Shown here piece by piece: positions 2,325-61,229 of a DNA stretch of 64,000 nt (positions within the stretch are counted from its first letter, which is position 1; each line of letters begins with the position of its first letter). The DNA comes from Amyelois transitella (taxonomy: Eukaryota > Arthropoda > Insecta > Lepidoptera > Pyralidae): contig NC_083505.1 of NCBI RefSeq assembly GCF_032362555.1, positions 955,001 through 1,019,000 on the forward strand. The letters run 5' to 3'. A program made the position numbers and the translations under genes. The notes beneath the pieces were generated by a model, which worked only from the letters and a program-made list of their open reading frames with translations, ran no database searches and had not been told where the DNA came from.

Positions 2325-5300
2325 TTAATTGACGTAGAGTTCAAAGCGAGCTCGGCCGATGCGGCTGTAGCGGTCGTAGTAAATGTCTCGGGTCCAGATG
2401 CGACACTCTACGCTGATCAAGACTCCGCCTGGAAGAGGAGATGGTCATAAGTGAAGTCATGATATGAGATAGGTACTTCTACATCTACGTCCTTCCTAAA
2501 TACGTAGGGAGAGGGACATCTTTCGATTTTTGAATTTTAAATTCATCGAACTTTTTTATGCACGTTCTCTTTTTAAATACTGTGCTCGCGATTTCATCCG
2601 CGTAGAATAGTTATTTTGGGCATAAAGCTAAGTTAAGCACTCGAGATGAATAAATTTCTCCGATTTTTTTCACATTCCCCATGATTTCTTCGCACCTAAT
2701 AGTTGCAACGTGATGTTATATAGCCTTAAGCCTTCCTCGATAAATGGACTATTCAACACAAAAAGAATTTTTCAATTCGAACCAATAGTTCCTGAGATTA
2801 GCGCGTTCAAACAAACAAACTCTTCAGCTTTATAACATTACTCCTTTCAAGATAAAGTTGTATTTTTTGAAGTACCGTTTGTAACTCTGTGGTCAGCCGA
2901 TAGTCCTGCCGCTGTTATCTGACATTCCCAAACCAGTTCTAAATAGGTAGACCCTGGATCCATCCCCAGGAATAAAACACCTGCTGATGTCGTGGTTACC
3001 GATAAAGCTGATACCGAACTATGAAGCACGTCAGCGGGTGCAAAGAAGAACCTACATACATACATATTATCACGACTATATCCCTTGCGGGGTAGACAGA
3101 GCCAACAGTCTTGAAAAGACTGATAGCTAGGTCACGTTCAGCTATTTGGCTATAAAAGAGAATTGAGATTCAAATAGTAACAGGTTGCTAACCCATCGCC
3201 TAAAAGGAGAATCCCAAGTTTATAAACCCTTAGTCGCCTTTCACGACACGCAAAGAAGTAACTACGTAAAAAAAAATGGTTTAAGAACAAGGTGAAAGAC
3301 TTACGCCTTGGATTCTCGAAGAAAACAGCAATCAGCGGTGGTGGCACTCTGTCGGGTTGGTTCCTCATGTAGTAGGACAGGCGGTCGGCGGTCGCCAGCC
3401 GGTCCAGCCGGAACCCCGGGGGCAGCTCGGCCGGGATGTACTGGATCGGCCCGACGTTCTCCTTGTCCGAGCTGCGTTCACCGTCGCAGGTCAACCACGC
3501 GTGGTCACCGAACTGGTGGACTGGATACTGCATCTGAGGATTAGGAATGGGTCAAGGTTCATACATACGTATGGTCACGTCTAATTCCCTTGCGGGGTAG
3601 ACAGAGCCAACAGTCTTGAAAACACTGATAGACCACGTTCAGCTGTTGGGCTTAATGATTCGTGCCGGAAACCATAAATTATCGTCGTGTGGTTCCCGGC
3701 ACCAATAAAAAAAAGAATATGACCACTACATCTTTCTCCCATGGATGTCGTAAAAGGCGACTAAGGGGTAGGCTTAAAAAATTAAGATTCTTCTTTTAGG
3801 CGATCGGCCAGCAACCTGTCACTATTTGAATCTCAATTCTATACATACATACATATGGTCACGTCTATATCCCTTGCGGGGTAGACAGAGCCAACAGTCT
3901 TGAAAAGACTGAATGGCCACGTTCAACTGTTTGGCTTAATGATAGAATTGAGATTCAAATAGTGACAGGTTGCTGGCCCATCGCCTAAAAATAAGAATCC
4001 CAAGTTTGTAAGCCTATCCATTAGTCGCCTTTTACGACATCCATGGAAAAGAGATAGAGTGGTCCTATTCTTTTTTGGTATTGGTGCCGGGAACCACACG
4101 GCACGGCATTTAAGGTTCCCGGGCACGAATAGAAAAAAGAGTATGACCACTCCATCTTTCTCCCATGGATGTCGTAAGAGGCGACTAAGGGGTAGGCTTA
4201 TAAACTTGGGATTCTTCTTATAGGCGATGGCCTAGCAACCTGTCACTATTTGAATCTCATTTCTATCTTAAAGCCAAATAGCTGAACGTGGCCCATCAGT
4301 CATTTCAAGACTGTTGGCCCTGTCTACCCCGCGGGGGATAAAGACGTGATTATATGTATGTATGTATGCCAAAAACTGTTCAGTGGTTCGCTTTTCGTAG
4401 ACTATTCCCTTTGTTCACAGCAATAGTAATAATAGTAAAGAGGTTTTCTCCGCCTACCCCTCCGGGAAAGAGGCTTGATTTTATGTATGTATGTACATAC
4501 ATACATACATATAGTCACGTCTATATCCCTTACGGGGTAGACAGAGCCAATAGTTCCGAAAAGACTGAATGGCCACGTTCAGCTGCTCGGCTTAATGATG
4601 GAATTGAGATCCAAATAGTGACAGGTTGCTAGCTCATCGCCTAAAAATATGATCGCAATTTCATAAGCCTGTATGTATGTATGTAATCGTAATAATTTCT
4701 AGAACTCACCATAGCTCTCCTTAGGTGCTCAGGCATGTCAGGCGGCAACACCATAGGTACTACCGTGGAAATGTTGTAGGGCTCCGGCACCCAGTAGTGT
4801 GTCTGTGAATATAAAGCAAGTTTAGACATAGACTGTTGGCTCTGTTCACCCCGCATGAGATGTAGACGTGATTTGACGTAAGTGTATTTGTAGAAATAGA
4901 CAGATAGATCTGATGATAATTGAGGAAAAACCTATCTATTTGATCCTTGGTCTTCTTAAAGCATTTTGAAGTTTTATGCTTTTATGAAATAATTTTTCAG
5001 TCACAACAGTAATTCTCTAATGTAATTCTGCCTTGTGGTTCCCGGCACCAATAGAAAAAGAATAGGACCACTCCATCTCTCTCCCATGGATCGTAAAAGG
5101 CGACTATGCCTACCATATAAACTTGGGATTGTTCTTTTAGGCGATGGGCTAGCAACCTGTCACTATTTGAATCTTGAACGGGCCGAGGGTCTGTTAGGGT
5201 CTTTGTCTAGTCTGAATAAAATAAAAAGAGATTTCTTCCCGTTCAAGATACGTCTTGTCGTCTCGTCGTCTTATGGTCGTCTCCCTAGTGTCGAAGTCGA

Positions 5301-8300
5301 TTGTCCTTTTTTTCACCAGTCTGACAGTCGGTTTTAGTCGTCTATATTTGTCAAGTCAAAGAGTCTCGTTTGTCCATGGAGGCTGAACGGCCGCTACAAA
5401 TCTCGATTCTAACTTAAAGCCAAATAGCTGAACGTGGCCTATCAGTCTTTACAAGACTGTTGGCTCTGTCTACCCCGCAAGGGATATAGACGTGATTATC
5501 TATACTCTATCTATCTATACTATACAGTAATTCTTATTGGCTCCCCTGCCTCCATATAGAAGGATATGAGAAGCTAGGTGGATGATCTACAACACTGGCA
5601 TGATTTATTTATTTTTTATTTATTTACGCCAAAAATACAACGATAGTAGTACACCTCTCACAGTATTTGGCAAGGAATTCTTATAAGTATAACAAAATAA
5701 AATAAAATCTTGACAGTATTAATTTCAACTAAAAGGACAAATAATAAGTATACTATGGGTAAGAAACAAAGAAGTAACTTACAGAAACAAACAAGTTGAA
5801 GTACATTCACCTTTCTCACAAAATAACAAAAAAATTCTTATAATCGTATTCCATCCATCCACATAAATATCACAATCAGGATGTTGATTTAAGAATGCGA
5901 TGATGACGTACAAACACTGGATTGGTTACTTACGTGTGTCAAACGGAGGAAGACACACGGCTTCCCCACGTGGTACCCGTAGAAATCGTCGGCTGTGCAT
6001 GGAGACCAAAATCTCATGGCTGACTCGCAGCTGTCAGACCTGAGCTGCTGGTCCCGACGGTTGTGGGTGGAACAGGGAGCCCGGGGCGGCTGGTCAGGAG
6101 TCGCCGTCTCGTAGTCTGATGGATAAGGTTGGATAAACGGTTATGTATTTGCTTGTAAGATTTTTTTTTGAAGAGAGCGGCGCATCTCTCCTCTTGTTCG
6201 GCTCGTTTAACCGGAAGGTTAATAAAGCCTTAGTAGTGGAGAAATTGTGTTTAAAGTTGTGTCTAATAAGCAATTAAAAAACAGAATAGCACAACTCCTT
6301 CTCTTTCCCATGGATGTTGTAGAAAGCGACTAAGGGATAGGCTTATAAATTTGGGATTCATTTTTTAGGTGATGGGCTAGCAACCTGTCACTATTTGAAT
6401 CTCAATTCTATCATCAAACCAAAAGCTGAACGTGGCCCATCAGTCTTTTCAAGACTGTTGGTTCTGTCTACCCCGCAAGGGATATAGACCATATTTATGT
6501 ATGTATGTAAGTCTTTTTAAGAGAGCAGCGCATCTCTTCCATGGTTCTGCTCGTTTAACTGGAAGGTTAATAAAGCCTTAGTAGTGGAGAAATAGTGTTT
6601 AAAGTTGTGTCTATAAGAAATAAAAAAAGAATAGGACCACTCCTTCTCGTGGCCTATCAGTCTTTTCAAGACTCTTAGCTCTGTCTACCCCACAAGGGAT
6701 ATAGACGTGATTATACATATATATGTATCAGCAACAACCTCGTGCTGTCAACGAGAACGAGGATAAATTTATTAAGTATTTATCAAGATATTTGTATGTG
6801 TGAACCTGACATTGCGAATTCCCTCGGGAGACGAGGCGCGAGGTTGCGAAACAGACCAAATGAAATTGCGCTCGTCGGCTCCAGCTTTGACACAGGTTAT
6901 CAAATAAATAGTTTTTGTGAGTTTATTCACCTTGTATCATTGATGCGGCCACCAATCTATTCTATCTATTCTATTCTATTCATATAATAAATCTGTAGAA
7001 GGGTCAATTCTGTACATTGAAAATATTGAAAAAATAAATAGCAGGGGGTGTTACTGGATCGATACCAAACCCAAATATGTGATTAAAAAATTTTTTGTCT
7101 GTCTGTCTGTATGTTCAGGCATCACGTGAAAACTATCGGTTCGATTTCGATGAAACTTGGTATAATTATACCTCATTATCCTGGACATAAAATGGGATAC
7201 TTCTTATCCTGGAAAAATACGTAAAAAAAATCTTAATTTTTCATTTTATGCGAACTTCTCTTACTAAACCATAGAAACATGCTAGGCGAAGCCTAGCCGT
7301 ATTTATAAGATGTCATTGTCAGAGTTACTCGAAAGGGAGAAATAAACCATTCACACGAAGACCGACATCCGCGCGGACGGACTCATGGGCGGAAGCTAGT
7401 AAAGAATAAAATTAATCTCTAGTATGTATTTATGATGTATGTATGTAATCACATAATTACCTCTAAGGAAGTCATTGATACGGGAGTACCAGATGTGCCA
7501 GCTTCCGGGGTCGCTGGGTCGGAACTCAATCAGCGGTTCTTCCCACCTGTACTCTTCTGTCCTAGGCCAGACCTCCAGCTCTGAAGAAATGAAGTTTTCC
7601 ACATTAGGCTGATTTTCTTACTCAAAATTGTGTATCGTTTGTGAAAGGTAGACTAACAAAAACAGTGCTTAGGCCTTCAGAAGTCATGCTCAGACAAGAA
7701 TGTTATTCGTGAACTTGGAAGAAATTGGGGTGGGTGGCTGAAGAATAGCAATATCCCACCAGGACGCTGTGGGATATCTTGAAATGAATCCCTGAAATGC
7801 ATTTTTGAATACAAAAAATTTAAAAATGCATTTCAGCGTCACAATGACCTTATAAATATCACATCAAACATTCATTTATCTTGCTCTGCGCCAACGCCGA
7901 TCTCCTGTTTGGTTTCCTTCCACCCAAAGGTTGACTGGAAGAGATAGCTTTAGCGTTAAGTCCGCCTTTGTACCATCTATATCTGCTTTGTGTTGTTTTG
8001 TATGTTTTACTCTTATGGTGCAATAAAGAGTTTAATCTATCTATAGCTATCATATTCAAACTGAAATATACTTACCGACATAGCGACGGGTCAGAAGCAG
8101 TCCTAACACCAGGCCCAGGATACATCCTGTAGGAATTACATATAGGGATTACTCAAGGGTTAAGGGTTAAGGTTAAAGAAGTATGTGAAGATGTAGTAAT
8201 AAGTGGAAAGTAGTCTCTGCCTTGTCTAGGTAATGTAATTTCCAAGAAGTCATAGTACATCTAGTGTTAAATAAGTTGGTTAAGTTCTTATGAGATTTTC

Positions 8301-9801
8301 GATTCGAGATTCTTTAGTTGATCACCCCGACCCTTATAAGTTTTGATTTTAGGGTAATTTTAGGTATTATATTTGGAAAATAAAATCTCGCGAGCTTATT
8401 ATTGGTCCGATTTAAAAAGTCAGCTTTTTGTAATGAGATTGTTAGCGAACTTTTACGGAGTACAAAGTCGCGGGAAATAGCTAGTTAAACATAAAACAAA
8501 TGTTTTATTTTCCGAGCCGTGTGGTTCCCAATAGAAAAAGAAGGCCGTGTGGTGCCGTCAGAGCAGAATAGCACCACCCGATATCTTCCCGCGGGTATCG
8601 TAAGAGGAGATTAAGTGGAAGGTGGGCATCAGCGCCTCTTACGCTGATATGACAACATAGTCCAGAATCAATAGACCCTGCGGTCACCAACCCGCCTCCC
8701 CAGCGTGGTGATTATGGGTAAAATCCCCCCTTTTCTGGAGAACCGGTGTAAGTCCAGCATTGGACTTTAATGAGCTGTTATGTTAAGGTAAGGTCTACCC
8801 CGCAAGGGATGTAGACGTGACTATATGTATGTTTGCCTTAGTTTTTTTTTAATAACGGTAAAATAAATTTAATGCCTAAGGTGCAGCAAATGTAGCCGCC
8901 TATAAGTCTGGATAGCGTTGTAAGCAACTTTTACGACTTCCTGTAAGTACCCATTGAGTCTGCGCAGACTTCTACGTTCATTACTAGGTCACTGCTCCGG
9001 GATACTATTATTACGTCATTAAACTAATAACATTATATAAGTAGAATTAACGTAAACAAAACATATAATCACGTCTATATCCCTTGCGGGGTAGACAGAG
9101 CCAACAGTGATCAAAAGACTGAAAAGCCACGTTTAGCTGTTTGGCTTAATAATCGAATTGAGATTCAAATAGTGGCAGGTTGCTAGCCCATCGCCTAAAA
9201 GAAGAATCTCAAGTTTATAAGCCTTTCCCTAACTCGCCTTTTACGACAATTAATATAAGTGAAGGTGAAAGTTGAAGAACAAGAGAGTGATTGATATGAA
9301 TTAAAGCGAAAGTAGTATACTGAGGTGGGAAATAGTCTGTCTACCCCTCCGGGATAAAAGACGCAACATTACTAATAATAAACGACGACCGTACGACCAA
9401 GACGAACGTATCTTGATCAAATTATGAACGTCTTGGCAAAGGGTCAGCTCAAGAGTACCCGAAACCGCCGAGCTTGCATGAAGAGAGTTATGAATGCGGA
9501 TGAAGCGAGGGAAGTGTGCAGAGATGTGTGAGATCGTGGCATGTGGAAAGATGTAGTCTCTGCCTACCCCTCCAGGAAAAAGGCGTGATTTTATCTATGT
9601 ATTTATAATAACATACATACTTTTGGTCACGTCTATATCCCTTGCGAGGTAGACAGAGTTGACAGTCTTAAAAAGACTTATAGGCCACGTTCAGCTGCTT
9701 GGCTTAATGATAGAATTGAGGCTTAAAAAAAACTTACCAATAACCAGTAGAATCACTACCACAATCCCAATGATCTTTACCGTTCTCTTCTCTAAACCCA
9801 T
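2325..9801 (-). CDS. Gene A: divergent Na+/K+-ATPase beta-subunit-like protein, minimal cytoplasmic tail
   Basis: Seven exons (minus strand): 9738-9801, 8076-8126, 7461-7580, 5934-6115, 4710-4802, 3305-3533, 2325-2428; phases 1,1,1,0,0,1; 280 aa. All donors are GTAAG/GTAAT/GTGAG and acceptors CAG. The protein is a type II single-pass membrane protein. Only about seven residues (MGLEKRT) precede the membrane span (about 8-34), and the usual tail with FLGRT-SSW is missing. The ectodomain keeps the beta-family frame: six cysteines at C93/C108, C118/C132 and C186/C255, the KPCVFLRL block, WVPEPYN with an N-glycosylation sequon at N149, and a final GVLISVEC motif. The stalk after the membrane is about 25 residues shorter than in gene B. 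Known for the family: partner of the pump alpha subunit. Inferred: a specialised or non-pump beta-like protein. The start was chosen because the ATG (ATCATGG) is in frame with the membrane exon; an alternative upstream exon cannot be excluded. Confidence 0.85.
2578..2845 (+). repeat. Fragment-B inside gene A intron 6
   Basis: Second copy of the unit at 1998-2275. The two copies flank the last exon of gene A as direct repeats about 580 bp apart. Confidence 0.75.
3058..3250 (-). repeat. SINE-A, 5'-truncated, gene A intron 6
   Basis: Reverse orientation; its 5' end stops about 55 bp from the exon 6 donor at 3305. Confidence 0.8.
3562..4368. repeat. Nest of four alternating SINE-A copies
   Basis: Pieces at 3562-3660 (-), 3691-3842 (+), 3843-4110 (-) and 4120-4368 (+) lie head to tail and tail to tail in gene A intron 5. 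They create long imperfect inverted repeats. Confidence 0.8.
4484..4680 (-). repeat. SINE-A truncated, bounded by TATG runs on both sides
   Basis: Between ATGTATGTATGTACATACATACAT and a second TGTATGTATGTA run that lies about 25 bp from the gene A exon 5 donor. Confidence 0.7.
5033..5500 (+). repeat. SINE-A split by a ~220-bp insert
   Basis: The 5' half (5033-5175) and 3' half (about 5397-5500) are separated by unrelated sequence (5176-5396) rich in TCGTC. Confidence 0.7.
6282..6728 (+). repeat. Two SINE-A copies, second internally deleted
   Basis: 6282-6510 is nearly complete. 6627-6728 jumps from the 5' GAATAGGACCACTCC to the 3' GGCCTATCAGTC. A short AGAGCGGCGCATCTCT-type repeat flanks them (6172-6240 and 6519-6600). 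Confidence 0.7.
7039..7402 (+). repeat. LINE 3'-end-like repeat
   Basis: Contains GGTTCGATTTCGATGAAACT and ends GCGGACGGACTCATGGGCGG, a common form of insect non-LTR 3' fragment. It stops just short of gene A exon 3. Confidence 0.55.
8516..8840. repeat. Composite of SINE-A-related pieces and a second short repeat
   Basis: Holds GTGTGGTTCC and GTGTGGTGCCGTCAGAGCAG starts, a GGTGTAAGTCCAGC segment, and a SINE-A 3' end (GTCTACCCCGCAAGGG to TATG). Confidence 0.5.
9060..9247 (-). repeat. SINE-A, 5'-truncated
   Basis: In gene A intron 1; ends at the GCCTTTTACGAC motif. Confidence 0.75.
9400..9602 (+). repeat. LINE 3' end with readable C-terminal ORF (partner of SINE-A)
   Basis: Frame reads TYLDQIMNVLAKGQ, then [20 protein letters not shown], then a short duplication; the closing SAYPS and a TATG-type tail are present. 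This resembles the end of a reverse-transcriptase-type ORF. Copies also occur at 10785-10910, 11580-11655, 15145-15240, 20560-20703, 23928-24068 (-), 34985-35135 (-), 36462-36565 (-) and 40395-40715. Confidence 0.7.
9612..9727 (-). repeat. SINE-A 3' half
   Basis: Ends about 10 bp before the gene A exon 1 donor region (9738). Confidence 0.7.
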
Positions 9802-11200: not shown

Positions 11201-12329
11201 TGACAGGACATTTGAAAGTATTTTTTTATTAAAAGTACTTAATAAAGATTAAGTATTTTTATTAAAAAAAGTACTCTCCAATCTGTCTAATCAAATCAAT
11301 GCAAATTTTATTAGACGGACAGACATTCCCCTTTTTGCTATATACAATCCGTAATGGCGTTGGAGGGGGATGTCTGTAATAAACATAGTGACGTACAGAC
11401 ATATATGTGTATGTATATAGTTCAGGGGTTGTTGACATTACCCCCCGGGAGAGATTTGCGAAACAGCGACTAAGGGTGGTGGTGATAAAGTTTAGTGTAA
11501 TTCTGTTATTTGGAACATGATATTAGCTATCTAACGGACAACAAAACAAGATTGATTAATGCCAGAGTATTTGATTCAAATGTGAGTTAGTATGGAAAGA
11601 GGTAGTCTCTGCCTACCCCTCCGGGAAAGAGGCGTGATTTTATGTATGTATGAGTTAGTTTCCCTTGCAATGTCATGCGGGAGACGCTTCGTGTAAACCC
11701 CTGACTTACGCAATCCAGGGTTCTTGGTCAAAGGCATGAATGGCATGGACTCCTTCTCCAGAGTGGTGAGGATGCAACCATTACTAAAAGACGAAGTCTT
11801 GACTTAGTTTTGACAGCGGCTTCGGATGGAGGGATTATTAGCCTGACCCGAAATCCTAGTCCAGTCGTGGGTAGATAGTATCTATGCTGCAGGCTAGATG
11901 TATGCTGAACAGGATGAGGAGGAGGATTATTATAAAAATCTCATATAAATAAATTAATCTGAACAATGTATTCTCTCGTCCACATTTTATTTTAAGTTAT
12001 AGGATATTTGTGAAGTTGACGTTGTTGAAGAAAATGCTGCAGTGCACTTTGTTACCGCTTCTTCTGCATTGACGGTTTGGAAGCGGCAGTAAACTTAGTT
12101 TGAAGTAATTTATTTGACGTCAACCAATGTTGTGAAACCAAAAGATTTGACAATTATTAAGCGATATGATAGTATCCTATAATAATTATTAAAAATTTTG
12201 AATTTGATGCAGAAGATAGCGTTTTGTAAGTTCTCTGTTAAAAAAAGTTTCAGTAACTACTGCTTAAAAATTTATACCCTGTCATAATAGGTATACAATA
12301 TGCATATTTAACACAATTTACAGGTTACT

Positions 12330-16060: not shown

Positions 16061-19000
16061 TTAGTATCGGTCCACCATCAGCTCGAAGTGGACTGAACCG
16101 CGCCTCTCGTAACGGTCGTACATGATGTTCTTCGCCCACGCTTTGCACTCGATGTTGATCAGAACACCCGCTGTAAATTAACGCATAAAATTATTCTCTT
16201 ATTTATTAGACTGTGGCTATACTGAGGCGGTGATTTGGAAGGTTAACAAAACCAAAACGTGTTAGGCATACGTCTGAGATTAATCCGGGCATTAACTCTT
16301 TTCAGAACATAATGAATGCTGTCTTTTGTAGCTCTTGGCTTTTATGAAGGAAAGCTACTCTGTGAAATTAAATTGTTATCCTTTTTAAAAGTGTTCTAAT
16401 TTGTGGCATCTTTGGATAACCTACTTAAACTGGGTTCTTTAATTTACTGTAAACCTTGCAGTTGCGTCAAAATCTTTAAGAGTCCAAAGATTGTTCCCGT
16501 TGGAACAAGAGTTCCAAATCATCACACTAAACCGATGTATGGCTCAGACGAGAGGAACTACCTTGTTGTCTAAAGACAAGACCATAACGTAGGTCAGGAA
16601 GCAGTTCCAACTTACTTCTGGGCTTCTCAAACAGCACAGCAACGAGGGGACTCAGGTACCCTTCCTTGTTGGTGAAGGGGTAGTAGTAGGCGGGGAAGCC
16701 CCTGCGAGGAATGTACTGCACAGGCCCGATGTTCTCCACGTCAGCTGGGTTTTCACCCTCACAGGATACCCATACAGTGTTGGCTTCTGGTTTCCCGGAC
16801 TGAAAGATAAAATAGTGGAAATTAAAGTTTAAGAGCTTTTTATTGCATTCATACATACATATATTGACGACTTTATCCCGTACCGGTATAGACAAAATAC
16901 AATCTAGAAAAGATGTTCGCAAGACCATGTTCAGCTGTATACTTATCTAATGGTGGAATTGAGATCCAAATAATGACAGCTAACCGATCGCCTAAAAGAG
17001 GAATCCTAAGTGTTTTCAATTACTGGATTCAATGACACAGTGCAGGTTTTAGTGTGTTCCACTGCAAGTTTGAGGAGTCGCTTCGTGTAAAAACTTGACT
17101 TCCGTGTGGTACCCAGCACACCATTCCTTTGCCAAAAAGAATAGGCACATTATCTTGTGCAGCTTTTACCCAATTTAAGTAAGATTCCCTTGCAAGGGTA
17201 CAACTCATTGTGTTAAAAAATACCGTCGAAGAATAAGGAATTCTATATAACCTTGGAATTAGACCTCGTGGAATAAAACTTATGGTCAAGAATTAAGGAG
17301 ATACGTACGTGCATCTTGATGTGGGCTTTAAGATCCTCCGGCATGTTGCGTGGCAGCTCCTCCGTGTTGTTGTAGGGCTTGGGTACCCAGTTGAAGATCT
17401 GGAATATAAAATGTATTTATTAACACCTGAAGAAAATTACTGATAAATCAATGCACAGATGATATACAAAGTGATGAACAGGGGTGCAAGGGTTAGGGTG
17501 GAAAGGGAGGCCAGGAACTTACTGACAGCTTAAACAGTGCCAGGAGATGCTAGGAGTCCAACACTCACATAGTTGAAGACCTGGGAGGCCGTCCATAAAA
17601 AGGATTTTCTCCTTAGAAAACAAAAAAAGGGGTGTTTAGGTGGAAGACGCAAATCTGCTTTTCTCCGATAAAGATAAGTTGACATTAAAGACCACACTAT
17701 TGGGCACAACATTCGGACAAACAGCAATACCTTGTTCAGTTTCAGGAAGACGCAAGGTCCAGCTTCTTCGTAGTTGTACTGGTTGGCTGGGGTGCATGGG
17801 TGGAAGTCGTCCACGGGCACATCGCAGACCTGCTTCTCTCCAAGGTTGGCTGATGTAGGGGAGCAGGGCACTCGGTTCTCAGCGCCAACCGCCTCGCCGC
17901 TGCCGCTGCCCTTCTTGCGGTATTCTAGTGGAGAAAACTTCAGTTATAAATACTCAACCAACTTCGCTTTAGCTCCCATGATGGTCTGGTAGCTACTTCT
18001 CTTTGCGCTGATTGAAAAAGGCAATTAAGCTCATTAACTTGGGATATAAAGATAATAGAACCACTCTATCTCTTTCCCATGGACGTGACTAAGAGATAGG
18101 CTTATAAAGTAGGGTTTCTTCTTCTTATAAGCGGTAGGCTAGACACCTGTCACTATTTGAATCTCAATTCTATCATTAAGCCTAACAGCTGAAAGTGGCC
18201 TGTCAATCTTTCAAGACTGCTGGCTCTGTCTGCCCCTCAAGGGATATAGACGTGATTACATGATTAATGAATTTTGGGATTCTTCTCTTAGGCGATGTCA
18301 TACTAGCTAGGCTTATCACTATAATCTTGATCAGCTAAACGTGGCCTTTCAGTCTTTTCGAGACTGTTATAATTCTGTTTACCCCATAAGGTACAAAAAC
18401 GTAATTATTACTATGTATGTATTTTCTACATGTACATGAGGCGCTCCACACCGCTAAGGACCGGGCAAGGTGGAGAGACGTAGTGCGCTCTAAACTGACT
18501 TGTCTCCGGGGAGTTCACGACCCTCAGTAATGAGGATTACGACGCAAGAAGAAGAAGTATTTTCTAAGACCTTTGAATATTGGACTGGTGTTATTTCAGT
18601 GTTTGCATGTGACCAAGTAATAAATATCTTACCACTGAGGAATTCATCGATGACCTTGGCCCACTTGAGAACGGAGCCCTTGTCGTTGGCCTTGTAGTAG
18701 ATCAGGGTGCTCTCCACGTTGGCAGAGTCCGGCATGGGGCGGAAACCGAGACCTGGACAAAATGGAAAGTCACAATTATGAGAATTACACTACTACTGCT
18801 TCCAAGCTGAACGTGGCCATTCAGTCTTTTCAAGACTGTTGGCTCTGTCTACCCCGCAAGGGATAAAGACGTGACGATATGTATGTATGTACTGCTTCCA
18901 AAGAGAAAGTTTCGTCACAATATCTTTATTGATATCACACTATAGTAATCGTTTCGCTGTACTCTCTAATAATAATATATAGAGAGTAAAACGTCTAGTA

Positions 19001-46100: not shown

Positions 46101-49100
46101 CATATATTTATTACTTATTTCATGATAGATAACGGGTGAAGAGACAATAACTCATGATGTTAATGAAACTACATTACATAAAAATTTTGCAACCCAGGTC
46201 ATTTATAATCCACGCTTAATCTTCCGCCATAATTAAGCAGTGTTGAATCCAATTAGTTACAAGCTCCTTGGTATGAGTACGTAGTTAGTTGATCCTTAGC
46301 GAATCGATTCTCGCCGAAATAGCCCAATGCTCGGCCGTGGTACGTGTTTACTTTACATTACTCGGTGGAATACTGACGAAACCATTTCCGTTTCGACGAG
46401 GTCGACAGTCCCTGGAGGATTTTGAAGGCTGTTTTTTTTTTACTACAAGATTTGTGGTAGTAAGGAAGAATGCCTTTGCGAAAACCCTCGACTTTGAAGC
46501 GGTCTTTGTGCAAAGATTTCCTGCAAGTATAAGTGATGTGACGGCACTGCGCGTATTTTAACTAACATTTTCTATGTCGTTTTTTACGACATAGGTACAT
46601 ACATATAATCACGTCTATATCCCTTGAGGGGTAGACAGAGCCAACAGTTTTGAAAAGACTGATAGGCCACGTTCAGCTGTTTGGCATTATGATAGAATTG
46701 AGATTCAAATAGTGACAGGTTGCTAGCCCATCGCCTAAAAATATAAGCTCAAGTATAAGCCTATCTCTTAGTCGCCTTTTACGACATCCATGGTAAAGAC
46801 ATGGAGTGGTGCTATTCTTTTTTGTATTTGTGCCGGGAACCACGCGGACATAAAAATTATCTACTAATTCCCAATTATTATCTACGGCATTATAAATTTG
46901 ATATAACAAATTTATAATCCATGGAAATATGAAAGATATTTATGTGGTATACAATCAAACAGACTGTACCTACAGTGAAAATATTATGTGTATATGTATG
47001 TACCGAGGCCGGACTATTTGCGGAGAACGTAAACTGCGGTGTGACGTCAGTAAGCAATATTTTCCGATACATTACCTAAATTGAGACGCGTGAGTTTACC
47101 GCTTCTGTATATTCTTATACTTACTAGCCGTGCCCGCGACTTCGTCCGCGTGGAATAGTTATTTTGGGCATCATTGATGATGAATAATTTTCCCCGTTTT
47201 TTGTTTTTTCACATATTCCATTATTTCTTTGCTCCTTATAGTTGCAGCGTGATGTTATACCTATAGCCTAAAGCTCGATAAATGGTCTATTCAATGCAAA
47301 AAGAATTTTTCAATTCGAACCAGAGGGTTCTGAGATTAGCGCGTTCAAACAAACAAACATCACGCTGTAACTTTTATGAGCGAAGTAGTAATGGAAAATG
47401 TGAAAAAACAGGGGAAATTATTCATCCTTGAGGGCTTCAATGATGCCCAATTTCATTCACGCAGACGAAGTCGCGGCCACAGCTTGTGTATTATAAGATT
47501 TGTCGGTGAATCTATAAATTTTGCATATTCATGATAAGTCATGATGCCGGTAGACTGAAATAAACTCTAGTGAAACGTCGAATTGGAAGTGATGCGTAAT
47601 GATTCATACATTATAGTATATTTCTATCAGTACCTATGTGATGATATGGACGACGAATAAATGATATTTATGGTTTTATGACTGTGCCTTGTGGTTCGCG
47701 GAAATTGAGAATAGGATCTTTCTAGAATAAGTCCCGGTTGCGTCCTGAAGATTCAGACTTTGGATACTTCTTTCAGGCGATGCGACGGGCTAGCAACCTG
47801 TCACTATTCGAATCTCAATTCAATCAGTAAACCAAACAGCTGAACGTGGCCTATCAGTATTTACAAGACTGTTGGCTCTGTTTACCCCGCAAACGATATA
47901 TACGTGATTATATGTATGTATGTATCTACTACTAAGTGCGAAACGAAGACTGTGCCCATTTCAGCAAGTAATGAAAAGTGTGCGTAATGGAAAACTCCAC
48001 TATACTGGGGGTGGCTTGACATACCGCACCTATCGGATCGCACTGTAGAGGAATAATAAGTATTTGGTGTCTTATAGAGTGCGCGTCAAGTACTTCACGG
48101 CGGGAACTTTCGTTATGAAGATTTGTTCGAAACCGCTTTCATTAAATACTAGCCGTTAACCGCAATTCCCGTTTTTGTATGTGAAAAGGGGCGAATTTCT
48201 GGAAAAAGGAGGAACATTATTATGATTTTCTCTGATCTCTTTGCCAAAAAATCATGAAAGTTGTTTAGAATGTATTCACGACAAACAAAAAACAGTTTTC
48301 TCATTATTATATTAGTATGGAAGTGATATTCGGAGTTGAAAGTTGTAAGAAACTTAATAATACTTCGACATGTTACCGAGAAAAGGGTTTCCCCGTTTTT
48401 TTTTCCACATATTCCATTATTTCTTCGATCTTAAACTTTATATAGCAAAAAGATTTTTTCAATTCGAACCAGTAGTTCCTGAGATTATCGCGTTCAAACA
48501 ATCAAGCAAACTCATCAGCTTTGTAATATTAGTATAGATTAAAGTTAATAATCAAAGTTATATAATCTAAATTCGAAATTCTGATTGTTCTTCAACTTCT
48601 AGCGACTGCGCACTCCAGATGTACCTCATGTGAACTCTATGGATCGCACCCATCTTTACGACGATTGTTATAGGTGTAAGGTAGAAATTGAAGGTTATTG
48701 TTTGCGAGAATTGGCTATGGATACCTATATTTCATAACTCACTTTTAATAAAAAAATTAATATACCTATTTTAGCGTTTAAATTTAAAAGATTCCTTTTA
48801 GACTAAGGGCTAATCGACCTGTCTAAATAAGTATTTCTTAATTCTCGTGTAGTTTCTACTCGCTTAGTAATTTTTACTCATTTTTCAAGAATTCTTCTCC
48901 CGTTCATGTATATACATACATATAATCACGTCCTTATTACTTACGGGTAAGAGCTAACGGTATTGACAAAAACAGAAAAGCCCAGACCATCGTCTAAAAG
49001 AGAAATCCTAAGTTTATGTGTATTCCTATGATTTAATTTTTCAATCTGCACGAGAAACAAGCAGCTGGCATACACACGTATGTACTTAAAAAATACATAC

Positions 49101-50980
49101 ATACATATCATCACGTCTCGACCCTTGCGGGTCAGAGCCAACAGTCTTGAAAAGACTTATAGGCCACGTTCAGCTATTTCGATTTAAGATAGAATTGAGA
49201 TTCAAATAGTGACAGGTTGCTAGCCCATCGCCTAAAAGAAGAATCCCAAGTTTATAAGCCTATCCCTTAGTCGCCTTTTACGACATCCATGGGAAGAGAT
49301 GGAGTGACCTATTCTTTTTTCTATTGGTGCTGGGAACTACACGGCAAAAAATAAAAAATATACCTTTAAATATATACCTTTACTACCAGACCAGCGTGAA
49401 AACTATACATTCAATAATACTCGTACATTAAAGATACATTGTAAAGTTCGTTAAAAACTCATAGTTTTAAACATAATTACAAGTTATCTACTAACTTTGT
49501 AATTACATATTTCATTACTAAATGATGTTTCAGCAGATGAATATTGATATAATGTAGTATTTAAGTTTATTAATGTTGGGTTCTAAAAGAACCAATAAAT
49601 CTTTTCTGTGGAATGTTCTAGGTATGTTCTTCATCATTATCGGCGTAAGTCACAATTTTATCCTCTCTGGTGAGAGGCCCAGAGTTCGGTCATAAATACA
49701 ATCCTTTTTATGGTCCTTTTCATCTTTTTACACAAGGCGACTCCATCCCTCCCGCAACCTTTACAGGGGGATCCTAATTTATTAAATATAAATAAATAAA
49801 TATATACGGGACAAATTACACAGATTGAGTTAGCCTCGAAGTAAGTTCGAAGCTTTACCTACGTTACGAGATACTAACTCAACGATAGGTAGGTACTATA
49901 TTTTATAATAAATACTTATATAGATAAAAATCCAAGACCCAGGCCAATCAGAGAAAGTTCGTTTCTCATCATGCCCTGGCCGGGATTGGAACCCGATACC
50001 TCCGGTGACAAAGACAAGCGCACTACTGCTGCGCCACAGAGGCCGTCAAGTATTCAAGGAGTGATACCCAGGGGTCAGCTAAGTTTTTAAGGTAAGTCAG
50101 ATTTTGGCACGAAGCGATTCACATCTGACCTCCGCAACCTTTACAGGGGAACCTTAACCCGTATTGTAATGTGCATGTATCATCGCGATGTTATCTCCCA
50201 CTTTAAGAACATAGGTTATAAATTGATTAAAGTTATAGTGTCATTTCACAACCTAGGTATTCTGATATGCACCCTTAAATTTAAGTAGGTTCCATAACTA
50301 TATAGAGCTAAGCTTGATATGCTATCAAAGCAAATGTTCTTCCTCTCCAGAGAGATGAGGCTGTAACCAGGACTAACGCCGCCGGGAAGAATAATGTCAT
50401 TTGCTTTGAACAATTTCTTTTATTGAACTTCATATTGTCCTAATGTGATGTGTCTGTCTCCGAATTATTTTATGTATTTTTATGGTCAAACATAGGCTAC
50501 TTCGTCTAAAACTGAGAATCCCGCGAGAACAAGAAACCGGGAATTTTACGTGGAATAAGCTGCGAGCTAAAGTTATTTTTTTTACAATAATTGTAGATTT
50601 ATTGCCCGTCATAAAAATTTATTACAGTCGATTGTTGACAGTTTAATCTCAATATTACTTTCTGGATGGTAATTCCACTGAGTACGAAAAAAAAAAGAAA
50701 TTATAGTTAGTATATTTTACGACATCCATGGGAAAGAGATGGAGTGGTCCTATTCTTTTTTTGTATTGGTGCCGGGAACCACACGGCATTGGCATAATGC
50801 ATAAAAAAACACACGAGATGAGCTATATTAGGATAGGTACTCACCCCATCTATGCGGCGTGCGCCCCAAAAACTTCCCCTCCTCTGGGTTCCATATAGCG
50901 TACTGGATCCTCTGCAAGAAAGGTCTATCTGGTGGTCTCCTGCAGTAGTTGACTTCACCATTCTGCTTGTGAGCGCCCAT
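40149..50980 (-). CDS. Gene D: Na+/K+-ATPase beta subunit paralog
   Basis: Seven exons (minus): 50845-50980, 44941-45069, 44508-44630, 43501-43682, 42337-42441, 41372-41540, 40149-40258; 317 aa. The tail (1-45) contains IQYAIWNPEEGKFLGRTPHRW. The membrane span is about 48-70 (LIYLVMYICIIIFFSICM). The ectodomain has TMDEKIPYFQL, DNPGMGHRP, six cysteines (C147/C159, C169/C183, C233/C290), sequons at N113 (NRT) and N133 (NKS), SYFPYDNTPGYLSPLVFVEL and an RCRAWAKNIRY ending. The start at 50980 has a near-ideal context (CCACCATGG); an in-frame ATG at 51040 would add 20 residues but lacks such context. Intron 1 is 5.8 kb. The donors of exons 2 and 5 are followed almost at once by SINE-A tails. Divergent from B but complete, with no stop or frame break, so probably functional. 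Confidence 0.93.
40395..40715 (+). repeat. LINE 3' end interrupted by a SINE-T fragment
   Basis: Coding-like LINE end split at 40457-40550 by a reverse SINE-T body; the KGQ region appears on both sides. Confidence 0.65.
40887..41155 (+). repeat. SINE-A full length, gene D intron 6
   Basis: From GTGCCGTGTGGTTCCC to four TATG units. Confidence 0.85.
41586..41850 (+). repeat. SINE-A full length (best reference copy)
   Basis: About 265 bp: 5' hairpin, central GCTAGCAACCTGTCACTATT, 3' hairpin CAGTCTTTTCAAGACTG, and (TATG)n. Confidence 0.9.
42058..42335 (+). repeat. SINE-A tail against the gene D exon 5 donor
   Basis: The TATG tail ends within about 3-5 bp of the donor at 42336. Confidence 0.85.
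42440..43470 (+). repeat. Fragment-C, SINE-A and fragment-B in series
   Basis: Fragment-C 42455-42666, SINE-A 42955-43200, fragment-B 43205-43470; together they occupy most of gene D intron 4. Confidence 0.75.
43905..44462. repeat. SINE-A inverted pair, gene D intron 3
   Basis: 43905-44115 (-) and 44202-44462 (+), head-to-head with about 85 bp between. The second tail ends about 45 bp from the exon 3 donor. Confidence 0.8.
44696..44935 (+). repeat. SINE-A tail against the gene D exon 2 donor
   Basis: TATGTATGTAT then TTTAC|C: the tail lies about 5 bp from the donor at 44940. Confidence 0.85.
45330..46115. repeat. Fragment-B (-) and SINE-T body (+)
   Basis: 45330-45572 and 46000-46115. Between them (45573-46000) no gene or clear repeat. 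Confidence 0.65.
46595..46850 (-). repeat. SINE-A near full, with small hairpin at its tail side
   Basis: Preceded by CTATGTCGT/ACGACATAG (46572-46594), a copied piece of the element. Confidence 0.75.
47125..47490. repeat. Fragment-B inverted pair
   Basis: 47125-47360 (+) directly followed by a partial reverse copy 47365-47490; long fold-back. Confidence 0.65.
47685..47925 (+). repeat. SINE-A diverged
   Basis: TGCCTTGTGGTTCGCGG start; TATGTATGTATG tail. A fragment-B remnant follows at 48390-48540. Confidence 0.7.
48910..49346 (-). repeat. Two SINE-A copies
   Basis: Diverged 48910-49020 and intact 49100-49346. Confidence 0.7.
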
Positions 50981-53530: not shown

Positions 53531-53751
53531 ATAGCATGGCATCAAATGAAACTCATACTTTATTTCTAAGTGGTTGTTATATGATGTCCATTCTTCAAAC
53601 ATAAGCGTTGGTGGCATCACGCATTTAACTGGATACCGAATGAGGTATTAATGACCGTTGTCCAAATACATGTAGCGACATGTCTGCACCACACGTCACA
53701 ATAATAAAAAATACAATCACGCGACGCTATCAGTCAAAAACAGCGAAAAAC

Positions 53752-55189: not shown

Positions 55190-55580
55190 ATTATATTATG
55201 AATGCGAAAGTTTGTATGTATGTATGGATGTTTGTTACTCTTTTACGCAAATACTACTGAACCGATAACGATAAAATTTGGCATGTAGGTAGCTGAAGAA
55301 CTAGAACAACACATGCTTTTATCCCAGAGTTCCCGCAGGATTGATTGTTACGTTACGATAAGGTTTCCACGCGGACGAAGTCGCGGGCGGCCTTCAGTAA
55401 TCCTACTTATATTATAATGCCAAATTTTGTATGTATGGATGTTTGTTACTCTTTCACGCAAAAACTACTGAACCGATTACGATGAAATTTGGTACGTAGG
55501 TAGCTGAAGACCCAGAACAACATATAGGCTACTTTTCATCCCGGAGTTCCCGCGGAATTGATAGGGTTTCCATGCGGAAA
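55190..55580 (+). repeat. Two tandem fragment-C copies downstream of gene E
   Basis: 55190-55400 and 55405-55580; the second runs to about 13 bp from the gene E poly(A) signal. Confidence 0.7.
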
Positions 55581-55592
55581 TCGCATGCGACT

Positions 55593-55598
55593 TTTTAT
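55593..55598 (-). terminator. Poly(A) signal candidate, gene E
   Basis: AATAAA on the minus strand about 45 nt after the gene E stop codon. Confidence 0.5.
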
Positions 55599-55642
55599 TA
55601 ATACATAAAAGTTTCCTAGACTTCTAAAAATATCACTATAGA

Positions 55643-58600
55643 TTATGGTTCTGCTGTCGTAGTCTCTGTCGCATCGTCTGCAGCTAAAAACAGCCTGAAC
55701 CTTGTATAACCCGACGGCTCTTTCAAGCTCTTCTTATAGATGATGTTCTTTGCCCAGGCGCGGCATCTGATGTTTACTGCGATGTTCACTGATACAAAAA
55801 AAAAAAACAAATTATAAAGATGAAAACATTATACTTTTAGGCGATGGGCTAGCAACCTGTCACTATTTGAATCTCATTTCTATCATTCAGTCTTTTCAAG
55901 ACTGTTGGCTCTGTCTATCCCGCAAGAGATATAGACGTGACCATATGTATGTCTCAAAGTAAGTTCGAGACTTGTGTTACAAGATACTAACTCAACGATA
56001 CTGTATTTTATAATAAATACATACAGATAAACATACAAGTCCCAGGCCAATCAGAAAAAGTTATTTTCTCATCATACCTGGCCGGGATTCGAACCCGGGA
56101 CCTCCGGTGTCGCAGACAAGCGTACTACCGCTGCGCCACAGAGGCCGTATATACTTGTACATACATTAGTGCCTTTTGGTCACCAGCTCCAATAAAAAAT
56201 GACAAAAGAACCACTCCGTCTCGTTCCCGTAGATGTCGGTAAATCGCGCAAGCAAAGATTTCACGGATTGGAGCATAAATACAACCTCTAGACACAATAT
56301 CGTCTGTCGCGCGGTTCCCGAAGCATCTAGCCTGTCGGAATATATTCCCTTTGGTGGCTTTCGAACCGAATCATTGTTCCCGCTAACAAAAGTAACAAAA
56401 TATATTTATTTATTTTTTATTTATTTATTTATTTTCACAAACTTAACCTATCATTACAGATATACCTAATTCGATAGGATAGTATTCAAGTTATTCAATA
56501 TACAATTATCAATTATATTCTGAGAATTATAATATTATTCTACTAATCACATAAGACATACAAAGTCGATATTGTGAATTCGCTCAGGGAACAGGAGAAA
56601 ATATATTGCGTTCTTACCAGGAGGAGTGACCACAACGGGCAAGAATGGACCAATGTCAACCGGCCCGTTGGTGAAAGGGAAGGTCCCGACCAAACTCCGA
56701 CCCCACGGGTATGAGAAGATGGTACCCAAGGTCCCGTTTGATTGGGGCTCTTCGGAGCAGGACACCCATACGCTTTTGGTCTGAAAGTTGAAAAATATCT
56801 GTAATGAAATGTAAGTGTATAATCGAACTTTGGTCCAATTGGTGCCGTGTGGTTCTCGGCACTTATACGACCAAAGAATAGAACCACTCTGTATCTTTTT
56901 TTTTGGTTCTTTTGGTCTGTTTTTTTTTATTTGATTGTTCCTTTTTGATTTTGTTTGTTTGTAAACTCTTTATTAAAACAGGATTTAGAAGAATATGTAC
57001 AATGGCGGACTTATCTCAATCGGGATTTCTTCCAGTCAACCAAAACAAAGGAAAATCCATAATCAAAAAGGCAGCGCACATAAAAATCATTGAGGATGCG
57101 TTATAATAATCAATAAATTTCTAAATAATTAAAAGATATTTGAACATTGACGTACTATAAACATGTTTATAGTTGATCGAAGTATTTAAATAAAGCAATC
57201 TAACTACCAGATCTTTTAGTGAAAAATATAAGGACTCTTGTTGAATGCAAATAGAAATCACTTTACAAGCTTTTAGTTGTTATATCAAATGTTCACAAAC
57301 ACTTCAAATATTACAAACTAGAGGCCGCCCGCGACTTCGTCCGCATGGAAACCCTATCAATATCGCGGGAACTCCGGGATAAAAAGTAGCCTATAAGTTA
57401 TTCTGGGTCTTCAGCTACCTACATACCAGATTTCATCGTAATCGGTTCTGGAGTTTTTGCGTGAAAGAGTAACAAAGATCCATACTGACATCCTGGCATA
57501 CTCATAAACTTTCGCATTTGTAATATTAGTAGGATAAATAATTTGGTAATTTAATTTGATACCTGGGAGTGGTCTAGACCCTTTATGTGTTCCTTGAGGT
57601 CATCAGGCATATCTTCCGGCAATCCACTGACGTCATAATATTCCGGGACCCAGTCGAAAATCTTAAAAAAAAATCGTAGGTATTAAAATAAACTAATTCA
57701 TAAATGAGTGCCGTGTGATTCCCGGAACTTACGGATAGGGCCACTTCATATGTTTCCCATGAATGTCGTAAAATGTGTGCCGTGTGGTTCCCGGCACCAA
57801 TAGAAAAAAGAATTGGACCACTCCATCTCTCTCCCATGGATGTCGTAAAAGGCGACTAAGGGGTAGGCTTATAAACTTGGGAATCTTCTTTTAGGCTATA
57901 AACTGTCACTATTTGAATCTCGTGATATCGTATCGTGAATCGTCGAAAAAAACGTGGCCTATCAGGCTTTACAAGACTGTTGGCTCTGTCTACCCCGCAA
58001 GGGATATAGACGTGATTATATGTATGTATGTCTGTCGTAAAAAGCGACTAAGGGAAAGGCTAACTTGGAATTCTTCTTGTAGACTATACAATATTTGAAT
58101 ACAGCTAAACGTGGTTTTTCAGTCTTTTCAAAGCCGTTAGCTCTGTTCATCACCACAATTCATTAAACGCAACAAACATGAACAGGAACCAATTAATTTG
58201 CCGCCGCAATAGTTATGATACTGTAAGGACGTTTATTTCCCGTGACGTCATCAATTCCCGTGCCGTGCGGTTCCCGGCATCAATAGAAAAAAGAGTAGGA
58301 CCACTCAATTTCTCTCCCATTGATGTCGTAAAAGGCGACTGTGGGAAATGCTTATAACTTAGGATTGGCTAGCAACCTGTCACTATTTGAATCTCAATTC
58401 TATCATTAAGCCAAATAGCTGAACGTGGCCATTCAGTCTTTTCAAGAGTTGGCTCTGTCTATACCCCTATGTACACATATGGACACGTCTATATCCCCCG
58501 CAAGGGATGTATGTATGTTAAAATATTTAGGAAATCGAGAAGTTAAATGGTATCACTGCAGAGGTTTCCACGCGATATTTGTCTTTATAGTAAAACAAAA

Positions 58601-61229
58601 AAAAACTTTACAAACCTTATTGAGTTTGATAAAGAAACACGGCGACCGAGGAAACCCGTATCTGTCTGGTCCAACACACGTCTCCATACCCGTCGGTATT
58701 GCGTTGGGATAGGCTGCAAATAAAATACGTAATGAGTAAGTATATAAGAGGAAGTATGAAAGTAGCGCTAATAAATGAAAAGATACATACATGCATACAT
58801 ATGGTCATGTCTATATCCCTTGCGGGGTAGACAGAGCCAACAGTCTTGAAAAGACTGAATGGCCACATTAAGCTAATAATCTTAGATATAAATATACTAA
58901 AGTTATGTTTTCATTCAAATTCCCGCGGGAGCGAAACCCCGGGACGCAGCTAGTCATATCTATAGCAAACTGAAGGTTACATAGTCAATATAACATTTCA
59001 CAATCTACGGTTTGGCGAGGGTCATCCTTTGTACTGTGATCTCATTCGTGTAAGTACAAATCAATCATTAAGGGCAATGAAGCTATAACATTTGTCGTGA
59101 TTGATGTGGAACGTATACTAGCGACTGCTTTCGGGTTTACTCGGGTGTCAATTGCAGCAACCTGTCACTATTTGAATCTCAATTCTATCATAAAGCCTTA
59201 TAGCTGAACGTGGCCTGTCAGTCCTTCAAGATTGTTGGCTCTGTCTTCCCCGCAAAGGATATAGACGTGATTATATATGAATTAATGGATGAGACAATGA
59301 TAGCTTATAAACTTTTATTATAAACTAGATGTGCCCGCGACTTCGTCCGCGTTGAATAGTTATTTTGGGCATCATTAAAGCCCTCAAGGATGAATAAATT
59401 TCCCCGTTTTTTTTTTCACATTCTCCATTATTTCTTCGCTCCTTATAGTTGCAGCGTGATGTTATATAGCCTAAAGCCTTCTTCGATAAAGGTCTATTCA
59501 ACGCAAAAAGAACTTTTCGTTTCGAACCAGTAGTTCCTGAGATAAGCGCGTTCAAACAAACAAACTCTTTATAATATTAGTATAGATGAACTCACTTTTT
59601 AGGTAGTCATCAAGCTGTTTTATGTAGACCTCTGTGGCGTTCTCGACATCAGTCCGGACTTCGAAGCCATCCAGTGGGAACGGTCGAAACGACATTCCTG
59701 GATTTGCACCTGAAAATTAAGTCAGAAGTTAATATCTCTCATCTGCCAAGACCCGGTAGCGCCTTCTACTCTCTAGAGAGGAGTATGGGCCGCAGACCAA
59801 GATACTGGAGGTAAGCTTGTAAGTAGCTAAATAAATTAAGCTAAGTTTTTACACAAAGTTATTCCCGGACATATCTTCACCTTTCTGGTGAACAGCACCG
59901 CCTAAACCTAAGCACTAATAAGACCGACAACCTGTCTAACCCGCTGCAGTGTAGTTTGTTCCGCCGATTCTTCTACACATGCGCTTTGAAAGCGGTGGTA
60001 GTGATAATTAGATTTAAGTGATGTGACTTTTACAGTGACACTTATTGACAGTGATACCTTGTGTCCAATTTAGAAAATAAATCTATTCTATTCTATTCTG
60101 TTACGTCATGCCGCGTCGGTCTTCCCGGCGCCCCTCTCCTCAGCACGGGAGCCCTAAAAATGCACCCTGGGTCTTTGGACTATCAGCTTTCACCAAGTAG
60201 CGGCAACTAGCGGCTCTTTGACGGATCTTGTGTAGGTATATATCTAAACCCACGAGCTATTTAACTTGTGAAACTAGTCCAAATAAAGTTTGTCTTTATT
60301 CTGTACATTTTTTAATTATCTCTCATTACTCTAACCTGCGTAGTTTTACTAAAACGCCACACCCGTAAGGGATAAAGACGTGATATATTTATGGGACAAT
60401 ATACATACATACATACATATGGTCACGTCTATATCCCTTGCGGGGTAGACAGAGCCAACAGTCTTGAAAAGACTGAATGGCCACGTTCAGCTATGTGGCT
60501 TAATGATAGAATTGAGATTCAAATAGTGACAGGTTGCTAGGCCATCGCCTAAAAAAGAATCCCAAGTTTGTAAGCATACTAATGGGACAATATAATTGGA
60601 TATATAGTAAGTTAGTCAAGTTTTTACAAGAAGCGTTGACTTCACCAACATCACCGTGACTTTGGTGGGAAACCTAACCCAAAATAGATCCTGACTCCAC
60701 ATTTAAATTGTCTGAAAAGCAAATTTTCTTAAGATGTTTTCCCTCACCGTTAATACCGTTTAGCAGTCTTAAAACTAACCAAAAAAAAATAGTGTATTAT
60801 CAATTTTACCGCAATTTTTAGGTGCCGTGTGGTCCCCGGCACCAATATCTACAAAAAAGAATAAGACCACTCCAACTCTTTCCCATAGATGTCATAAAAG
60901 GCGACTTAGGGATATGCTTATAAAATTGCGATCCTTTTTTTAGGCGATGGGCTAGCAACCTGTCACTATTTGGATCTCAATTCCATCATTAAGCCGAGCA
61001 GCTGAACGTGGCCATTCAGTCTTTTCGGGACTATTGGTTCTGTTTACCCCGTAAGGGATATAGATGTGACTATATGTATTTATGTATGTATCAATTTTAC
61101 CTATAAGAGACTGATGTAATGTGAAGGCCGGTCTACTATTATCCAGGGTGAGGAACAGCCCAGCCATGCAGGCTGCAAACATGGCCGCCAGGACTGCGTA
61201 GAACACGAAGTAAAATGTCAGCACTATAC
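55643..61229 (-). CDS. Gene E (5' incomplete): beta-subunit paralog lacking the first disulfide pair
   Basis: Six exons seen (minus): 61101-61229, 59596-59709, 58616-58713, 57563-57661, 56618-56780, 55643-55788; 248 residues plus an unseen first exon that must end in phase 1. The first visible exon encodes the membrane span (LTFYFVFYAVLAAMFAACM) and TLDNSRPAF. Then come NPGMSFRPFPLDG with an NAT sequon, the CFFIKLNK block, IFDWVPEYYD, VWVSC, an NGT sequon, and NIRCRAWAKNIIY. The exon equivalent to exon 4 is 98 nt against 182-194 in A, B and D. It has only METC and SPC, so cysteines 1 and 2 of the family are absent. The region matching AYYYP...LSPLVAV in B is strongly altered. The C-terminus is extended by a Thr/Asp/Glu-rich end (DDATETTTAEP). 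No canonical exon 1 (FLGRT-SSW) was found between 61230 and 64000. Confidence 0.88.
55835..56150. repeat. SINE-A 3' half (+) joined to SINE-T (-)
   Basis: In gene E intron 6; the SINE-T ends with the CTGCGCCACAGAGGCCGT head. Confidence 0.75.
57320..58520. repeat. Fragment-C (-) and several SINE-A copies around gene E exon 5
   Basis: Fragment-C 57320-57535. SINE-A starts at 57706 and 57777 (nested, to 58030), 58030-58150 (partial) and 58259-58520. Confidence 0.65.
58790..59585. repeat. SINE-A pieces and fragment-B, gene E intron 3
   Basis: 58790-58880 (-), 59155-59280 (+), fragment-B 59325-59585 (+) ending about 10 bp from the exon 3 donor. Confidence 0.7.
60405..61090. repeat. SINE-A pair, gene E intron 2
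   Basis: 60405-60580 (-) and 60822-61090 (+). The second's TATG tail ends about 10 bp from the exon 2 donor at 61100. Confidence 0.8.

Follow-up and report, generated by a model that had tools for sequence, protein, structure and literature searches.

A local cluster of six diverged Na,K-ATPase beta-subunit genes in the moth Amyelois transitella

Background

Insect Na,K-ATPase beta subunits have a type II layout. Several beta paralogs per species are described in insects, as Drosophila nrv1-3 and Oncopeltus beta1-3 (PMC9110512), and the four betas of Oncopeltus differ in distribution (PMC12125057; PMC9110512). Oncopeltus betax, a beta without the usual cytosolic N-terminus, is described as lacking homologs in other insects (PMC12125057). 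Beta-like genes besides the nrv genes, named CG5250, CG11703 and CG8663, are listed in Drosophila (PMC522876, Table 6). The genes reported below belong to the same family as nrv1-3 and Oncopeltus beta1-3, to which they were matched by name, but are six multi-exon genes residing in a single cluster. The solved chain closest to gene B (searched with a hand-made draft of B) is 8k1l_B, the beta2 subunit of Artemia salina (organism as given in PMC11172918), which is 50% identical to B and 46% to C and carries the same six ectodomain cysteines, yet is placed outside the cluster set in each of the six trees built.

Organization of the cluster

The window (the whole 64-kb stretch of DNA analyzed) holds five Na,K-ATPase beta (PF00287) genes, wholly or in part, as a sequence-only reading had proposed; the full cluster, however, spans about 74 kb and has six members, and both gene F and the first exon of gene E lie just beyond the window (Table 1). 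Position 61229, taken in that reading for the start of gene E, is the upstream end of exon 2, exon 1 being located 6.7 kb farther upstream. Gene C runs in the opposite direction to the remaining five. A Gar1-like gene adjoins the block. The block is likely to be a long-established group of neighbouring Na,K-ATPase beta genes, a known kind of family cluster.

Table 1. Beta genes and exons in and next to the window. Positions are those of the window unless preceded by C1 (contig coordinates). Structures of A exons 3-7, B, C, D and E exons 2-7 derive from spliced alignments; PF00287 scores refer to whole proteins (A without candidate exons).
Feature	Position	Strand	Exons	PF00287 (bits)	Remarks
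Gene A, exons 3-7 (secure)	2325..7580	-	7461-7580, 5934-6115, 4710-4802, 3305-3533, 2325-2428	95.4 (profile positions 77-281)	beta ectodomain; phases 1,0,0,1
Gene A, candidate exon 1	9738..9801	-			MGLEKRTVKIIGIVVVILLVI-G; donor GTAAGT, phase 1
Gene A, candidate exon 2	8076..8126	-			CILGLVLGLLLTRRYV; donor GTAAGT, phase 1; in the usual place of the anchor exon
Gene B	16061..26156	-	26024-26156, 20067-20207, 18633-18752, 17731-17924, 17309-17398, 16616-16799, 16061-16170	274.4	canonical beta, 323 aa, 7 exons; phases 1,1,1,0,0,1
Gene C	33412..38058	+	33412-33571, 35559-35813, 36132-36424, 37134-37302, 37955-38058	283.9	326 aa, 5 exons; introns 2 and 4 absent
Gene D	40149..50980	-	50845-50980, 44941-45069, 44508-44630, 43501-43682, 42337-42441, 41372-41540, 40149-40258	251.8	317 aa, 7 exons; phases 1,1,1,0,0,1
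Gene E, exons 2-7	55643..61229	-	61101-61229, 59596-59709, 58616-58713, 57563-57661, 56618-56780, 55643-55788	146.6	whole protein 294 aa
Gene E, exon 1	C1:1,022,912-1,023,047				MSNTHD...GRTPKRWG; beyond window
Gene F	C1:1,026,303-1,031,019				beyond window

Computed splicing of genes B, C, D, E and F yields for each a single uninterrupted reading frame, running from ATG to stop across GT-AG junctions; the earlier view that all genes are intact holds for B, C, D and E, but A is complete only with two candidate exons. Third-position GC is 0.58-0.76 in B-F, against an overall GC of 0.34-0.42 measured in 4-kb steps across the window. All six cluster proteins (A without candidate exons), as well as the one beta-like protein from contig C9 that was scanned, exceed the curated PF00287 cut-off (23.3 bits), with scores of 95.4-283.9 bits and E-values of 4.4e-27 to 1.5e-84, which exclude chance as the source of the family match.

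Seven exons with phases 1,1,1,0,0,1 are common to A, B, D and E, exons 1 and 2 of A being candidates. The intron phases, described earlier as matching throughout, diverge in C, and also in F, a gene of six exons in which intron 2 is absent and intron 4 is shifted by one base (phase 2). The structure and phases shared by B, D, E and the secure exons of A show that these genes arose through duplication rather than retrocopying; neighbouring paralogs with intron positions and phases in common, the pattern left by tandem duplication, are found here, C and F deviating.

The proteins vary in tail length, disulfides and NxS/T sites, a difference noted earlier and borne out by the protein alignment. 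The cysteines of disulfide pairs 2 and 3 are present in 12/12 aligned proteins. All six ectodomain cysteines of B, C, D and F fall in the columns where they are expected; the first pair is absent from E and from both C9 proteins. Gene E also features a short exon 4 and the longest C-terminal tail of the set; remnants of the lost part of exon 4 were sought upstream, the top score being 24 and no match convincing. A GRT motif is found in the tail of B, C, D, E and F.

Genome searches with PF00287 and six proteins (B, C, D, E, A and one C9 protein), in which the best candidates were scored, revealed outside the cluster only two beta-like genes, both intronless and located on contig C9; a match on contig C14 (E 0.99) is at chance level. 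Relatives were also sought in viral contigs (52 pattern matches) and in contigs of prokaryote genomes (22), and none was confirmed, as expected for an animal gene.

Gene A

The secure part of A has intact splice sites and phases in all five exons and no stops in 241 codons. Its ectodomain carries six cysteines by number and spacing, though the first is not in the column used by B. Without candidate exons, A lacks a start codon. Motif, anchor and similarity scans of the 8.5 kb separating A from B found no canonical exon 1 or 2. The anchor-exon scan gave no match in the interval of A, and the true exon as sole match in the intervals of B, D and E; the exon-1 motif scan, also negative in the interval of A, picked up the first exons of B, D and E plus one spurious match at 498. 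Similarity scans of the same interval gave best scores of 35 for exon 2 (40 on the opposite strand; 84, 99 and 117 in leave-one-out controls) and of 36 for exon 1 (36 on the opposite strand, in a scan run without leave-one-out control). The hydrophobic frame at 11859-11996 does not qualify as an exon of A, as suitable splice sites are lacking and adjoining sequence is, by eye, repeated in an intron of B.

The two candidate exons have a single genome match each. They are the sole such pair in the interval, and any pair, a weaker one, was seen in 1 of 38 control windows, a control devised after the exons had been seen, so that 1/38 is no clean probability. With them A would have an intact frame with GT-AG junctions, a GC3 of 0.71, a tail of 9 residues and a glycine-rich anchor lacking the aromatic residues kept in the other proteins (partly so in D). 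Gene A is best described as a non-standard beta, in which the ectodomain is kept and the short tail and membrane anchor are probably different. It may resemble betax of Oncopeltus, as that protein is described, in that the canonical cytosolic tail was not found, a likeness that may be convergent. Tentatively, the anchor of A may have been swapped, the 9-residue tail and a glycine-zipper helix (GxxxGxxxG, with no aromatic contact face) replacing the alpha-binding anchor, with the ectodomain self-associating on the cell surface independently of the pump, as an insect counterpart of the milkweed-bug betax.

A 5'-truncated pseudogene, or a remnant no longer yielding a membrane protein, would also account for exons 1 and 2 being unrecognisable by scans which recover those of B, D and E, for a branch that is the longest or near-longest in the trees, and for an odd amino-acid make-up. 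We hold this to be unlikely. At 24-33% identity to the other cluster proteins an unconstrained frame is expected to have gained stops, the probability of none in 241 random codons being about 1e-5; the intact exons, the six cysteines and the GC3 value argue in the same direction, and the two candidate exons complete the frame.

Partners of the alpha subunit

A search with one 101-residue alpha fragment detected a single canonical alpha match, which comprises two exons on contig C17 at 92-93% to the query; an open frame on contig C31 reaches 45%. The local family of diverged betas proposed earlier is real, and the suggested role of its members as alternative partners of the pump is the most probable one given one canonical alpha locus and six clustered betas, A being a possible exception. 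B, C, D and F would encode ordinary type II beta subunits, as probably would the reduced E, and these would join the alpha subunit encoded by the single canonical gene, aiding its folding and arrival at the membrane. If betas are partitioned among tissues, for which gut, testis and tubule had been proposed, pumps differing in ion affinity or junction role would result. Lepidopteran blood is high in potassium and low in sodium, and replacing a silkworm beta with rat beta1 altered both Na+ and K+ affinity, as reported in PMC9483571. Tuned pumps would matter in such a setting. A, with its beta ectodomain on a probably different short tail and anchor, may act independently of alpha, for example in cell contact, and perhaps is not a pump partner.

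Most betas of the cluster could instead work apart from the pump, in septate junctions or adhesion. Junction roles are published for Drosophila Nrv2 and for Oncopeltus beta1 and beta2, and Oncopeltus beta3 and betax were observed without alpha (PMC9110512; PMC12125057). Against this, the FYxxFY-type anchor face is kept in B, C, E and F, and partly in D (IYLVMY, in which two of the tyrosines are retained), and we find a general pump-independent role improbable.

Age of the cluster

Identity among the six cluster proteins is 24-55%, and long branches lead to B, C/F and D/E in the trees; the set is therefore not a recent expansion. D and E group firmly. The branches of D, E and A are longer than those of B, C and F, which could also mean relaxed constraint. 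A branch (support 89/87, not starred; 69/90 with the C9 pair included) separates the six proteins from Artemia beta2 and vertebrates. B as sister of Artemia beta2 is absent from the best trees, a grouping not rejected by AU tests (p 0.167 and 0.208). A Drosophila Nrv1 (unverified sequence) joins D+E (92/92, 91/90), or D where E is dropped (88/90); this provides a lead that the D/E split predates Lepidoptera and, if right, agrees in part with the old clades shared by insects which the sequence-only reading had set against its own proposal. A late burst of tandem duplication in Lepidoptera or in this species, sorted by selection, would fit the adjacency of the six genes and their place on one side of the branch, but has little probability in view of the identity levels, the paths from B to C/F, of the same order as those to Artemia, the intron changes of two kinds seen in C and F and, as a lead only, the landing of Nrv1 inside the set.

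Conclusions

The analysis provides a corrected map of the beta-subunit genes of one insect, six in a single block against one canonical alpha locus, and suggests that one alpha may be tuned by many beta partners. If real, the new anchor of A would offer a direct test of whether beta ectodomains function without the pump.

Beta genes in the genome

Profile searches with PF00287 over the whole 327-Mb genome (33 contigs) gave 19 exon-level matches, 15 of them within one stretch of the contig holding the window (C1) and four in two intronless beta-like genes on another contig (C9). The stretch carries six Na,K-ATPase beta genes, named A to F. The sequence-only reading had counted five and ended the cluster at 61229; both figures are short, because gene F, as a whole, and exon 1 of gene E reside outside the window. 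Protein queries from the cluster genes other than F, and from one of the C9 genes, added no further beta gene among the best candidates scored, the sole row outside the cluster and the C9 pair, on contig C14, being at chance level (E 0.99).

Positions of the features discussed (plain numbers are window positions; C1, C9 and C31 are contigs of the same genome)
Feature	Position	Strand	Remarks
Beta cluster	C1:957,325 to 1,031,019		order up the contig A(-), B(-), C(+), D(-), E(-), F(-)
Gene A, candidate exon 1	9738-9801	-	both candidate exons short, with strong donors and compatible phases
Gene A, candidate exon 2	8076-8126	-	
Decayed partial copy of first exon of C	33985-34044	+	in intron 1 of C; followed by a stop
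Intron-4 equivalent of F	C1:1,028,223-1,028,577 (73223-73577)		absent from C
Intronless beta-like pair (locus L021)	C9:9297355-9298239 and 9299353-9300276		57% identical in the family alignment; long N-terminal tails
Alpha-like sequence	C31:10523635-10523907		inside the unbroken frame
N/Q/G/Y-rich frame	27606-28559	-	between B and C; 317 codons, repeats
Glycine-arginine-rich frame	C1:1,031,518-1,032,177 (76518-77177)	+	divergent from F
Marginal tRNA match	49972-50043	-	29.1 bits vs. cut-off of 29
25-base repeat word, example sites	3859, 5471, 19401, 31211		39 other places

Gene structure and protein features

Gene models were obtained with a purpose-written spliced aligner and refined by hand. 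B, C, D, E and F (323, 326, 317, 294 and 317 residues, respectively) each read as a single open frame from ATG to stop. The earlier statement that the genes lack stops and frame breaks holds for B to E, gene A being complete only with its candidate exons. With these counted, A, B, D and E feature seven exons and phases 1,1,1,0,0,1, and the matching intron phases proposed before are confined to these four. Introns 2 and 4 are absent from gene C. In gene F, intron 2 is missing and intron 4 sits one base away from its position in A, B, D and E (phase 2 vs. 0), possibly by intron sliding. Exon 4 measures 98 bases in E vs. 182-194 in A, B and D. Third-position GC is 0.58-0.76 in the genes; the window as a whole, measured in 4-kb steps, has a GC of 0.34-0.42.

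All 12 proteins in the alignment carry the cysteines for disulfides two and three; E and both C9 proteins lack the first pair, and the disulfide sets of the cluster genes do differ, as had been suggested. The aromatic face of the beta anchor touches alpha. A FYxxFY-like face is kept in B, C, E and F, and reads IYLVMY in D. The predicted candidate anchor of A has no aromatic residues, and carries G at each fourth position (GCILGLVLG).

The N-terminus of gene A

Exons 3-7 of A are clear (95.4 bits, PF00287 positions 77-281). Tail and anchor exons of the usual beta kind were not found by anchor, similarity and motif scans: the anchor-exon scan gave nothing for A, the true exon being the only match in all three control genes; the best exon-2 similarity score was 35, under the 40 of the opposite strand (controls, 84-117); and the exon-1 motif scan recovered B, D and E, and nothing in the interval of A. 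The two candidate exons, each matching once genome-wide, would encode MGLEKRTVK, the hydrophobic run IIGIVVVILLVIGCILGLVLGLLL, and TRRYVE leading onto exon 3, for a predicted protein of 280 residues. One such exon pair occurs in the interval of A, any pair in one of 38 equal-length control windows, and the lone control pair is weaker (hydropathy 2.78 vs. 3.37, donors 6.7 vs. 8.4). As this test was designed after the candidate pair had been seen, the N-terminus is graded as plausible rather than shown.

Divergence of the cluster genes

Pairwise identity among the six proteins is 24-55%. A 10-protein maximum-likelihood tree splits arthropod from vertebrate betas at 100/99 and unites D with E at 98/97; it sets the six cluster genes apart from Artemia beta2 and the vertebrates at 89/87, a value not starred. 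C and F group at 80/93 without A; in the 10-protein tree, which includes A, this pair has a value of only 57/15. When the C9 pair is included, five of nine inner branches are open and the branch enclosing the six drops to 69/90, D+E being kept at 97/98. AU tests do not reject a grouping of B and Artemia beta2 (p 0.167 and 0.208). An unverified sequence of Drosophila Nrv1 groups with D+E in two trees (92/92, 91/90); in a third, with A and E dropped, it groups with D (88/90). All three trees place Artemia beta2 outside a set made up of the cluster genes and Nrv1 (88/88, 90/89, 85/86). No beta relatives were found in scans of viral and prokaryote contigs. Splits among the cluster genes that would predate Lepidoptera are a lead only.

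Neighboring sequence

The 25-base word TACCCCGCAAGGGATATAGACGTGA, part of a dispersed repeat, occurs at 43 places in 64 kb on both strands (up to 3 mismatches), vs. a mean of 0.00 in 100 shuffles. The marginal tRNA match is possibly a repeat. The N/Q/G/Y-rich frame has no Pfam match. The frame beside F, which we take to resemble the snoRNP protein Gar1, is a possible synteny marker.

Relation to known betas and to alpha

Multiple betas per insect are already known. There are nrv1-3 (PMC9110512) and the beta-like genes CG5250, CG11703 and CG8663 (PMC522876, Table 6) in Drosophila, and four betas differing in place and role in the milkweed bug (PMC12125057; PMC9110512). One of these, beta-x, is N-terminally truncated and reportedly without homologs in other insects (PMC12125057); A likewise seems to lack the usual tail, a likeness by description that may be convergent. 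Gene A may turn out to be a new beta variant. No description of a lepidopteran beta cluster was found in titles and abstract openings of the papers listed from the open literature, which is weak evidence of absence, because the search covered these parts only and subscription papers were mostly outside it.

An alpha fragment of 101 residues found one canonical match in the genome, in two exons on contig C17 (92-93%). Other pumps probably account for three more rows (52-55% over 33-38 residues). A single open frame of 1018 codons on contig C31 is 45% identical to the same fragment; it is perhaps an intronless alpha that might pair with the C9 betas. Replacing the silkworm beta with rat beta1 altered K+ and Na+ affinity (PMC9483571). 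Six clustered betas and one alpha point to a probable role as alternative partners.
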